Positions 17,714-21,167 of a stretch of 35,894 nt of DNA are shown here, in pieces. Both the position numbers and the translations under genes were made by a program. The stretch spans positions 56,962 to 92,855 of the forward strand of contig MFRN01000031.1 of the NCBI GenBank assembly GCA_001784585.1. The letters are read 5' to 3'. How positions within the stretch are numbered: the first letter of the stretch is position 1; every line of letters begins with the position of its first letter. The notes beneath the pieces were generated by a model, which saw only the letters and a list, made by a program, of their open reading frames with translations, did no database searches and was not told the origin of the DNA. The stretch comes from Candidatus Melainabacteria bacterium RIFCSPLOWO2_02_FULL_35_15. Its GTDB lineage: Bacteria; Cyanobacteriota; Vampirovibrionia; 2-02-FULL-35-15.

Positions 17714-17740
17714 GAGTAAATATATTTGAGGAGCACATTA

Positions 17741-18442
17741 ATGGAAAATCCACTTAATACTGTTGGAGATAATTCAAGGGGAAGAATTGCAATCTTTATT
17801 GATGGCAATAACCTCTTCCATGCTGCCAGAACAATTGGTATTGAAATTGATTATGCAAAGCTTTTAAAGCTTCTCTGCCATTGCGGTTCATTGCTTAGAG
17901 CCTTCTTTTATACCGGTGTAGATGAAAATGCAGCAAAACAGCAAGGTTTTTTACTCTGGATGAGAAGAAACGGCTATAGAGTTGTTCAAAAGGAACTAAA
18001 GATTTTTCCTGATGGTACTAAAAAAGCAAACTTAGATGTTGAGATTGCTGTTGATATGCTTAGCTTGTCTGGTAAGTATGAAACTGCAATTCTTGTAAGT
18101 GGAGATGAAGATTTTGCATATGCAGTAAATGCTGTAGCTTATAAAGGAACCAGAGTTGAGGTGGCAGGTTTTAGGAATAATACTTCTCCAAAATTAATCG
18201 ATGTAGCAGACAGATTTATAGATCTTGACAGCTTAATTCCATACATAGTAAAAGAACCTGACAGCGAAGAGCAAAGAGCTGCAATTGCTGCTGCAAAAGC
18301 AAACGGGCTCTTATTTATGGATGAAGATGTTTTACAAGCCACAAGAGAAAGAACATCCTCGTTTATTGGTAAAAAATCAGCTGCCACTAATCACGAAAAA
18401 TTAATGCCTACAGAAGTAACAATACCTAAACATAGAGATTAG
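17741..18442 (+). CDS. NYN/LabA-like PIN-fold protein
   Basis: This belongs to the NYN (PF01936, DUF88/LabA-like) family of PIN-fold putative ribonucleases. ATG17741 is preceded by GAGGAG 9 bases upstream; the in-frame TTG at 17726 is part of that region and is rejected. The acidic residues expected of the active site are present: FIDGNNLFH (Asp near 21), KKANLDVEIAVDML, and LVSGDEDFAYAV. A C-terminal tail of about 70 residues is basic and probably disordered. It is co-oriented with metG (27-base gap) and the cytochrome gene. An RNA-processing role is inferred from family only. Confidence 0.88.
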   Translation: MENPLNTVGDNSRGRIAIFIDGNNLFHAARTIGIEIDYAKLLKLLCHCGSLLRAFFYTGVDENAAKQQGFLLWMRRNGYRVVQKELKIFPDGTKKANLDVEIAVDMLSLSGKYETAILVSGDEDFAYAVNAVAYKGTRVEVAGFRNNTSPKLIDVADRFIDLDSLIPYIVKEPDSEEQRAAIAAAKANGLLFMDEDVLQATRERTSSFIGKKSAATNHEKLMPTEVTIPKHRD

Positions 18443-18489
18443 TTAACCATAAGAGATTGCTAAAATCGAACGGGAGAAGGGGGGAAATT

Positions 18490-19716
18490 ATGGCACAGAT
18501 TCAGTTTCCATATTTGGGAAATTCACTTGTTATGGCAATTGTAATCCTTACTCACGTATTTCTTGCCTTTATTGCAGTAGGTGGTATTACAATCGCAGTC
18601 GTTTCTGAATATATAGGGTACACAAAAAAAAGTCCATATCACGATTTACTTGCTAAAAAATACATGAACTTTATATCAAACCTCATGAAAGTAGGAGGTG
18701 TTTTTGGCACAGCGATTGTTGTTCTCTTAATTGGCCTTTTCGGCGAGTTCACAAAAACGCTTTTTAATATTTTTTTCTTCCCGCTTCTTTTAGAAGCTCT
18801 GATGTTTTTTGTCTTGTTTGCCAGCTCAATTTACTATCGTGAAACCTGGAACAATACAAAAAATAAAAAACTTCACCTTTTTAGTGGTTTTATTGCAGCA
18901 CTGGCAGGAATCATAGCAGCGTTTATTATTAATACAGTATGGTCATTTATGCTTACCCCGGGAAGCTATTTTAAAAATCCCAGTATGACATCTGCTGTAT
19001 TTAATCCGCTTGCTTTTTCTTCCTTTACCCATCTTATAATCCCATGCGTTATAAATAGTGCCTTTTTCTTTTTTATTTACTCGTTCTACAAAATAAAAAC
19101 CGGGAACCTGGAAGAAAGGCCATTTTATAAGTGGGCAGGAGACTATACAGGAAAGATCACTGCAATATTTATTCTGTTCCAGATAGTATCCGGAATTCTT
19201 TTCCTTCTGACGATTAGAGCTATAGATAATTCTATCTTTACTAAAATTGTAGCGGGGGATGCCAGTATATTTTTCTATTCCATGATTACCCTTGCAGCTA
19301 TTGCTGCAATTTCAAGCATTATTTTTCTGCTTACAAGAAAGCAGGCATATGTTGTTTTACTCCTTGGTGGACTGGCAGTATACTTAGCGTTTCCACTTGG
19401 TGGATATACAAGAGAAAGAGCAAGAAAGCCTTATCTTATTCAGGGATACATGTACATGGACCAGCGACTGGCAACTGCTCAAGGTGTAAAAAAAGAAGTA
19501 ACTAAGGAAAATATACTTGCCAAGTACGGGTGCCTCTCATGTCACAAATTTAAAGGTCAGGGAGGAACATTTGGACCAAATCTTACCAATGTAAGACTAA
19601 AGCTAAATAAGAATCAGATAAAAAGTATTTTAAAGGCTCCTCCACCAGGTATGCCGCCTTTCGGTGGTGACGACAAGGGTATTGAACAAATTACTGAGAC
19701 CTTGCTAAATAAATAA
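18490..19716 (+). CDS. Cytochrome bd subunit I-like protein fused to cytochrome c
   Basis: The 408-residue membrane protein has about eight to nine hydrophobic helices, followed by a C-terminal mono-heme cytochrome c domain: CLSCH at 348-352 and a probable distal Met in PPPGMPPFGG (about 388). The membrane part looks like a divergent CydA. His22 (ILTHVFLAFIAVGG) corresponds to the first heme ligand, Glu102 (PLLLEALMFF) to E. coli Glu99, and His181 (FTHLIIPC) to His186. ARKPY (311-315) resembles the GRQPW motif. The position equivalent to Glu107 is Phe, and no Q-loop is present between helices 5 and 6. No cydB-like gene is adjacent. ATG18490 follows a GGGGGG ribosome binding site; the in-frame upstream codons from 18457 are rejected. 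Confidence 0.82.
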   Translation: MAQIQFPYLGNSLVMAIVILTHVFLAFIAVGGITIAVVSEYIGYTKKSPYHDLLAKKYMNFISNLMKVGGVFGTAIVVLLIGLFGEFTKTLFNIFFFPLLLEALMFFVLFASSIYYRETWNNTKNKKLHLFSGFIAALAGIIAAFIINTVWSFMLTPGSYFKNPSMTSAVFNPLAFSSFTHLIIPCVINSAFFFFIYSFYKIKTGNLEERPFYKWAGDYTGKITAIFILFQIVSGILFLLTIRAIDNSIFTKIVAGDASIFFYSMITLAAIAAISSIIFLLTRKQAYVVLLLGGLAVYLAFPLGGYTRERARKPYLIQGYMYMDQRLATAQGVKKEVTKENILAKYGCLSCHKFKGQGGTFGPNLTNVRLKLNKNQIKSILKAPPPGMPPFGGDDKGIEQITETLLNK

Positions 19717-19784: not shown

Positions 19785-21167
19785 ATGCCGGTTAAAAAAC
19801 CAAAACAAAAGCAAACTTTATCTGAAAAAATCACTGAGCTGCTCGAGAATAATCAGGATTATGACTTAAAAGATCTCTTAAATGATCAATACCCACAGGA
19901 TATAGCTCCTGTTTTGGAAAATCTGAAAGAGGAAGGAAAAATTTTATGTTTTTCACTGCTTGATTTGGAAAATGCAGGCAATGTCCTTACTGAACTAAGC
20001 TCTGAAACACAAATGATGCTTTTAAAAACCCTCGGCATTGAAAAATTTAGCGGAATTATTTCACAAATAGATGTAGATGATGCAACTGATATTATTATCC
20101 AGCTCCCTGAAAAAGAAAAATCTGCACTTTTAAAAATTTTACCCGATCCTGTTCAGCTGGCACATGTACAGGAACTTATACACTATCCTCCGGAATCTGC
20201 CGGCGGAAGGATGTCTACTGATTTTTTAAGATTGAGGTCGGATATGACCATTCATCTGGCATTTAATTATGTACGCAGACAGGCAGCTGAATACAAGGCA
20301 CAGGTTCATTATTTATATGTGGTTGATAATACAAATAAATTAGTCGGGGTAATCAGCTTAAGAAATTTAATATGTGCTCCGCCAAACGATCTTGTGGCAA
20401 ATCACATGAGTACTGATATTCTTACCTGCAAAGTAACTGATGATCAGGAAAATGTAGCAAAAACAATTTCAAAATATGACTTAATAGCACTGCCTATTGT
20501 AGATGAAGAAAACACTTTAAAAGGAATAGTAACAATTGATGATGTAGTAGACATTTTAAATAAAGAAACCACAGAAGATATTTATCAAAGTTCCGGTATC
20601 AGCGATAAATTCAGATCAGATGAATTAATTTCCGGGAAAGTAACTTACGCAGTAAGAGCCAGGTTACCATGGCTGTTAATAACACTTGCAGGAGAAGCAA
20701 TAGCTGCATTAATTATTGCTTCGTATGATAAAACAATTATTTCTGCACCGATTGCAGTTTCATTTATGCCTCTTTTATCCGGACTTTCAGGAAATGTCGG
20801 AGGACAAACAGCCACAATAATGGTAAGAGGACTGGTTACAGGCGACATAGATCTAAAAAATACTGCTAAGCATATTTTTCATGAGTTAAAAATTGGAATA
20901 TTAATTGGTGCCATATGTTCGCTTATAACCGGGCTTATTGCCTGGCTGCAGCATGATCAACCAGTCTTAGGTTTAGTGGTTGCATTTGCACTTATATGCT
21001 CTATAATCAGTGCTGTATTGCTCGGAACTATATTCCCTATTTTGCTCCAGTGTTTTAAAAAGGATCCTGCTGCTGCAAGCTCGCCTATAATAACGACACT
21101 GCTTGATATATTGACTTTTACATTTTATCTGGTGATAGTTTCAATGAGCCTTAGATATTTACATTAA
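19785..21167 (+). CDS. mgtE: Magnesium transporter MgtE
   Basis: This is a Mg2+-selective channel/transporter of the cytoplasmic membrane. The 460 residues contain in order: a helical N domain (about 15-135), two CBS domains that sense Mg2+ (MSTDFLRLRSDMTIHLAFNY..., then HMSTDILTCKVTDDQENVAK...LKGIVTIDDVVDIL), a plug helix, and a C-terminal membrane domain with five helices beginning at PWLLITLAGEAIAALIIASY. The pore signature LSGNVGGQTATIMVRGL is intact. It stands 68 bases downstream of the cytochrome gene on the same strand. Confidence 0.96.
   Translation: MPVKKPKQKQTLSEKITELLENNQDYDLKDLLNDQYPQDIAPVLENLKEEGKILCFSLLDLENAGNVLTELSSETQMMLLKTLGIEKFSGIISQIDVDDATDIIIQLPEKEKSALLKILPDPVQLAHVQELIHYPPESAGGRMSTDFLRLRSDMTIHLAFNYVRRQAAEYKAQVHYLYVVDNTNKLVGVISLRNLICAPPNDLVANHMSTDILTCKVTDDQENVAKTISKYDLIALPIVDEENTLKGIVTIDDVVDILNKETTEDIYQSSGISDKFRSDELISGKVTYAVRARLPWLLITLAGEAIAALIIASYDKTIISAPIAVSFMPLLSGLSGNVGGQTATIMVRGLVTGDIDLKNTAKHIFHELKIGILIGAICSLITGLIAWLQHDQPVLGLVVAFALICSIISAVLLGTIFPILLQCFKKDPAAASSPIITTLLDILTFTFYLVIVSMSLRYLH

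Follow-up and report, generated by a model that had tools for sequence, protein, structure and literature searches.

The window, i.e. the whole stretch of 35,894 nt that was analysed, carries an intact gene for a CydA-like protein fused to a cytochrome c (bd-c protein). The fusion is real and stands alone. Its sequence and predicted structure suggest that the protein is, on balance, probably a membrane O2 reductase of the bd superfamily that is fed by c-type cytochromes. Judging by sequence comparison, it is a variant of an already known c-bearing kind of bd protein, distinguished by two unusual active-site features, His181 and Leu109.

Domain architecture and predicted structure

The bd-c gene is an intact open reading frame (ORF) that starts with ATG and encodes 408 aa; the mechanically determined ORF begins further upstream at TTG 18457. 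The gene, its neighbors and the sites discussed below are located as follows.

17726..18442, + strand: upstream neighbor, NYN-domain protein, left insertion border (PF01936; adjoins mgtE in 7/7 family genomes)
18473..18484, + strand: purine-rich, ribosome-binding-like stretch just 5' of ATG 18490 (sequence reading)
18490..19716, + strand: bd-c gene, CydA-like protein fused to cytochrome c, 408 aa (PF01654, 78.1 bits; PF13442, 29.6 bits)
18490..19467, + strand: CydA-like membrane domain, residues 1-326, eight predicted helices (AlphaFold2 and VIA-align)
18553..18555, + strand: His22, equivalent of an active-site heme ligand (His19 in E. coli); His in 9/9 CydA and 86/86 OR-C rows
18793..18795, + strand: Glu102, equivalent of E. 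coli Glu99; Glu in 95/95 other rows
18814..18816, + strand: Leu109 at the second conserved Glu position (Glu107 of E. coli); Glu/Asp in 95/95 other rows
19030..19032, + strand: His181, corresponding to His186, a ligand of heme b558; His in 9/9 CydA and 0/86 OR-C rows
19225..19260, + strand: short loop in place of the Q-loop, connecting helices 6 and 7 (residues 246-257; AlphaFold2, alignment)
19282..19284, + strand: Met265, probably corresponding to Met393, a ligand of heme b558; Met in 9/9 CydA and 5/86 OR-C rows in one alignment
19414..19431, + strand: Glu309-x-x-Arg312-Lys313-Pro314, Glu of the b595-ligand position and OR-C form of the GRQP motif (alignment tally)
19498..19713, + strand: cytochrome c domain, residues 337-408 (cytochrome c551 alignment, PF13442)
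19531..19545, + strand: CLSCH heme c attachment site, residues 348-352; Cys, Cys and His invariant in alignments A1 and A5
19651..19653, + strand: Met388, likely distal heme c ligand; invariant in alignment A1, at least 90% in A5
19785..21167, + strand: downstream neighbor, MgtE, right insertion border (PF01769/PF03448/CBS)

Both Pfam domains are matched far beyond chance, PF01654 (cytochrome bd subunit I, E 6.4e-22) over residues 14-235 and a second stretch, and PF13442 (cbb3-type cytochrome c domain, E 8.7e-7) over residues 347-401. A phmmer search against solved structures retrieved 5doq_A, the bd oxidase of G. thermodenitrificans (E 1.3e-16). The base composition gives no sign of a foreign origin of the gene: its GC content is 36.7%, compared to 35.5% for the window, and its GC3 is 31%, compared to 24-31% in nine neighboring genes.

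The AlphaFold2 model, built from the query and 72 relatives (structure alignment A5, 73 rows, C-termini of the relatives cut at 470 residues), has a mean pLDDT of 84.4 and a pTM of 0.85. It shows eight long helices followed by a small helical C-terminal domain. The top Foldseek match of the model is again 5doq_A (E 1.1e-6), and in VIA-align ten solved CydA/AppC chains are found at Z 30-34 with 310-321 residues aligned, the next fold being an alternative complex III subunit at Z 18.9. The predicted fold is thus that of CydA and not of a non-heme family, and CydA-like helices are indeed joined to a cytochrome c, as a sequence-only reading of this DNA had described. The C-terminal domain is a class I cytochrome c; residues 337-408 align to cytochrome c551 351c (Z 6.9, 72 residues). 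The CLSCH site named in that reading lies within this domain, and the Met ligand it considered likely corresponds to Met388.

The Q-loop is missing, which had likewise been noticed from the sequence. At its position the model has a loop of about 12 residues, flanked by predicted helices at residues 211-245 and 258-280. In CydA, the N-terminus and the Q-loop are periplasmic. Combined with eight predicted helices, this topology would place the cytochrome c domain in the periplasm, and the charged loops, judged by eye, agree with that placement.

Conserved residues and kinship within the bd superfamily

Residues were tallied in one alignment of the query with 9 CydA rows and 86 c-bearing OR-C rows. 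The OR-C rows comprise 77 best ORFs, two second copies (L083, L084), three plasmid proteins and four rows from the genome search. Over the columns used for the tree, 93 of the 96 rows are distinct. One of ten canonical candidates (L202) was left out because it lacks the GRQP motif; long multiheme rows were shortened to 620 residues and L088 to its C-terminal 460.

E. coli Glu107 belongs to the proton path of the enzyme. The corresponding position is Glu in 9/9 CydA rows and Glu (85) or Asp (1) in the 86 OR-C rows, and in the query it is occupied by Leu109. The sequence-only reading had assigned Phe to this site. No insertion of the Leu101 type interrupts the helix here, which puts the site at +7 from Glu102, the distance seen in all nine CydA and 86 OR-C rows; the Phe sits one residue further, at +8. 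The other equivalents claimed in that reading, His22, Glu102 and His181, are present and aligned in 9/9 CydA rows. His181 also faces His in the phmmer match to 5doq and in the hhalign match to alignment A3.

Two further ligand positions, which the earlier reading had passed over, are occupied as well: Glu309 at the b595-ligand position and, less surely, Met265 at the b558 Met position. The register of the Met265 helix is not secure: a second alignment displaces it by 1-2 residues, and the phmmer match displaces it further. Glu309 and Arg312 are common to all alignment rows. The position of Lys313 is Lys in 85/86 and Arg in 1/86 OR-C rows and Gln in 9/9 CydA rows, and Arg308 follows the OR-C pattern (Arg in 86/86) and not that of CydA. 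For comparison, the ligands given for E. coli bd-II in parts of PMC8585947 are His186/Met393 for b558, Glu445 for b595 and His19 for heme d.

Sequence profiles relate the membrane part most closely to OR-C. It scores 126.6 bits against the OR-C profile (residues 5-324), 39.4 bits against the profile of the OR-C partner subunit and 26.4 bits against that of CydA. Similarly, the hhalign match to OR-C is full-length (387 columns, E 6e-34), and the one to CydA spans 184 columns (E 1e-8). In the trees, sampled without OR-N and cable-bacteria sequences, the query is located on a long branch outside 86 OR-C rows (quick tree, SH-aLRT 97) or outside 39 such rows (careful tree, 88/96). Its end branch has a length of 3.08-3.25, and the tree program warned of long branches. 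When the query was held together with L086/L089/L132, the log-likelihood was 3.0 above that of the free tree (p-AU 0.58, not rejected). A first reading of the trees that placed the query as a 'missing link' was dropped, as the AU test gave it no support over nesting with these three loci.

The protein has distant matches across the collections searched (genomes, plasmids, genome_contigs, viral_contigs), with identities of at most about 31% and of 27-29% for the best-scoring ones. An exact-peptide scan returned no close relative from genome_contigs or viral_contigs. The alignment-based scan of genome_contigs returned 350 relatives with a top identity of 27%, of which the best 80 were retained; 77 of these gave a bd-c ORF, and L108, L109 and L152 were dropped for want of a matching ORF. 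Among plasmids, a single 29% match is found on a Niallia plasmid and covers 40% of the query. The 386 genomes of the phylum hold one further match at E<=1e-12 (L211). It was rejected as a close relative, since its sequence is that of a usual OR-C protein, in which Arg follows the missing His. Its genome (G165) is listed under the same phylum with 7% contamination, and the OR-C gene may be foreign there.

The OR-C family of the cytochrome bd superfamily reportedly goes back to Murali, Gennis and Hemp in 2021. We take a C-terminal c-type cytochrome domain to be its defining feature, and the query has one (PF13442, CLSCH, Met388). It further resembles OR-C in the CxxCH type of this domain, the missing Q-loop, the R-E-x-x-R-K-P motif and the full-length profile match. 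Unlike OR-C, it has His181 (0/86) and Leu109 in place of Glu/Asp (86/86), and it lacks a detected partner and adjacent Rieske/cytochrome b genes. A nearby partner (63/77 loci from the best 80 of 350) and a missing b558 His (86/86) are OR-C patterns counted in this work and not published definitions. The family names of the superfamily are used in passages of PMC10839748 and PMC13189123, and the remark of the sequence-only reading that c-bearing members had already been described was right.

With canonical qOR (5doq, E. coli bd-I/II) the query shares the CydA fold, His22, Glu102, His181, Glu309 and probably Met265; in contrast to them it has neither a Q-loop nor CydB, carries RKP for RQP, and has eight predicted helices and a cytochrome c domain. 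Subunits of alternative complex III (6lod_C, 6btm_F) and polysulfide reductase (2vpw_C) have a distantly similar helix bundle (Z 17-19), but at 8-10% identity these matches are clearly weaker than those to CydA. OR-N of Nitrospina is outlined in sections of PMC3578206 as a bd-like oxidase in which extra helices replace the Q-loop, with 14 predicted in total. By this description, the query with its eight predicted helices is set apart from OR-N. In parts of PMC10839748, the Nitrospinota authors state that functional confirmation of the OR-N type is lacking, and the portions of the literature covered gave no tested function for any c-bearing bd relative.

Genomic locus and respiratory gene content

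The source genome (G000) has a size of 1.94 Mb in 45 contigs and is 98.95% complete. The bd-c gene was inserted between the NYN and mgtE genes: these lie 55-205 bp apart (mechanical ORF starts) in 7/7 family genomes examined, and in the source genome the bd-c gene is located between them. No match to the query was found in 10 other family genomes searched, two of them from the same genus. Bin contamination is an unlikely source of the gene: the contig surrounding it is 92.9 kb long, its two flanking genes are direct neighbors in sister genomes, and its GC content is similar to that of the window.

COX1 is present in 7/8 other family genomes searched. Only G002 gave no match; this genome has a completeness of 86%, and one cytochrome b match in it begins 467 bases from a contig end. 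In G001, the COX1 gene is cbb3-like, and genes for FixO, cytochrome c, a Rieske protein and two cytochromes b come after it. In the source genome, no COX1 (heme-copper oxidase, NorB-type included) was matched. This lineage thus appears to have lost the cbb3/bc cluster and acquired the bd-c gene, a candidate exchange, among the species of a single genus, of a cbb3-type oxidase for a lone bd-c protein. The cluster could still sit in one assembly gap, as synteny with G001 would place it beyond the end of the bd-c contig.

The bd-c gene is the single PF01654 gene of the source genome, in which no cydB (PF02322) was matched either; the control search was positive in 10/14 known genomes. As the sequence-only reading had it, there is no cydB beside the gene, and neither a cydB elsewhere in the genome nor a Q-loop in a corrected gene model was found. 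That either was overlooked by the gene model is ruled out by the neighborhood, the genome search and the predicted loop. A profile search of the genome for a bd-like partner gave no match, its sensitivity to very diverged proteins being low: it missed the query gene itself, which scores about 38-39 bits when searched directly. No second bd-like ORF was found on the whole 92.9 kb contig and other stretches of the same genome (271,478 bases, overlaps and window included). The bd-c protein is the only candidate found and is probably the only oxygen reductase of this bacterium.

Genes for cytochrome c maturation (ResB, CcsA), which the earlier reading had suggested looking for, are present. The genome also encodes the nar operon NarGHJI, with narG (1528 bits) and narH (640 bits) above the NCBIfam cut-offs. 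Within this operon (L077:9885-12849, G000:C17), a NarI-Rieske fusion is followed by cytochrome b and a CxxCH protein, and the sister loci L080 and L081 are similar. This nar-linked cytochrome b is the only one in the genome, and the operon, as potential donor, and the bd-c gene are on different contigs. A five-heme cytochrome c554-like protein is encoded elsewhere (L065:8165-9634, G000:C4).

Proposed electron path and alternative readings

From the missing Q-loop, the tethered periplasmic heme c and the missing cydB we infer that electron entry through cytochrome c is likely. The electron exchange with cytochrome c proposed in the sequence-only reading gains likelihood to this extent and stays inferential. 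Electrons of the quinol pool could reach periplasmic c-type cytochromes via the Rieske-cytochrome b module beside NarGHJI. From a periplasmic cytochrome c they would pass to the tethered heme c, on to heme b558 (His181/Met265) and finally to a two-heme active site (His22, Glu309), at which O2 would be reduced. As no partner was detected, the protein may be a homodimer. Leu109 in place of the second Glu could mean another proton route, or that little or no energy is conserved. In this nitrate-respiring bacterium, the enzyme would probably be used to respire at low O2 or to remove O2.

A precedent comes from cable bacteria. In these, a CydA homologue whose cytochrome c domain faces the periplasm has been proposed to reduce O2 (parts of PMC13047784), and CydA homologues without a complete bd oxidase have been reported from their genomes (parts of PMC10030654). 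The query resembles this CydAh of Ca. Electronema / Ca. Electrothrix in being a CydA homologue with a periplasmic cytochrome c in a genome without a complete bd oxidase, a likeness of architecture; unlike CydAh, it comes from a different phylum. The precedent lowers the novelty of the query, and by analogy the enzyme is perhaps non-electrogenic.

Several points weigh against a c-fed O2 reductase. Leu109 at a site conserved in 95/95 other rows could mean lost activity; no partner was found, compared to one nearby in 63/77 c-bearing relatives (from the best 80 of 350); a partner as diverged as the query could escape the profile search of the genome; the Met265 register is insecure; and the potential donor operon is located on a different contig. 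Possible but unlikely is a usual enzyme of the OR-C type. Its bd-like partner would then be encoded at another place in the genome, lie in the unassembled part or be too diverged for recognition. In the 63 OR-C loci with a partner gene, this gene encodes a second bd-like protein without CxxCH of about 340-430 aa, and the 14 loci without one include some that are cut by contig ends. In the class relatives G020 and G015, a partner-like gene and the bd-c gene are located on different contigs. The tree with the query beside L086/L089/L132, which was not rejected, also fits a hidden partner. Against it stand the negative searches of the genome, the whole contig and the other stretches of the same genome, and His181 and Leu109, which are unlike all 86 OR-C rows.

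The neighborhoods of these relatives are informative for the electron path. Of the 77 loci from the best 80 of 350, 39 have an upstream cytochrome b gene whose end is at most 250 bp away from the bd-c gene, and 34 encode a protein with a Rieske motif. The frequent cytochrome b adjacency supports, at the level of gene order, a flow from quinol via cytochrome b/Rieske to heme c and bd. The order cytochrome b - bd-c is likewise found in class relatives of the query, beside whose own bd-c gene no partner, Rieske or cytochrome b gene is located. A common order is partner - Rieske - cytochrome b - bd-c (L083-L162, e.g. L085:3240-7437 and L113:3066-7362), predicted to form a single quinol-to-O2 unit. 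The partners (alignment A2, e.g. L084:8575-9702, L162:7252-8376) mostly carry R-x-x-H, and some (L085, L120) have Phe at the His position. Since the His of this motif aligns with His181 of the query, the low-spin heme of partner-bearing enzymes may sit in the partner subunit.

That the active site of the bd-c protein reduces nitric oxide or peroxide arising from nitrate respiration, as a detoxification enzyme and not in O2 respiration, we consider improbable. NarGHJI is present and no NorB-type COX1 homologue was found in the genome, and canonical bd oxidases are ascribed a role in O2 and NO detoxification (parts of PMC10839748). However, no gene of nitrite/NO metabolism adjoins the bd-c gene, which has NYN and mgtE genes as neighbors, and a similar nar operon occurs in the sister genomes G006 and G008, where the query has no match. 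Least probable of the three is a degenerate bd relative that has given up O2 reduction and would only carry electrons between periplasmic cytochromes and some other protein of the membrane. The loss of the second conserved Glu, the long branch and the lack of a detected partner speak for it. Against it, the ORF is intact and, diverged as it is, has retained His22, Glu102, His181, Glu309, Arg312 and the heme c site.

The c-fed O2 reductase can be spelled out further, in a form that is rather unlikely to hold in all its parts. The protein would then be a one-subunit, four-heme cytochrome c:O2 reductase (c, b558, two-heme site) that forms a homodimer, keeps the ancestral b558 site, is fed by its own tethered cytochrome c, is intermediate between qOR-CydA and OR-C, works without the Glu proton path and has replaced a cbb3-type oxidase in one lineage. 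As a single gene with no known partner to co-express, it would be convenient for asking whether a tethered cytochrome c drives bd chemistry and whether such chemistry conserves energy.

Two further arrangements were observed among the relatives. In L095, L102, L117, L118, L122, L123, L157 and L160, the bd-like protein has extra C-terminal CxxCH motifs, mostly eight in total and two in L118. L083:4680-8401 and L084:5977-9705 each encode two bd-c paralogues in tandem, followed by one partner-like protein.
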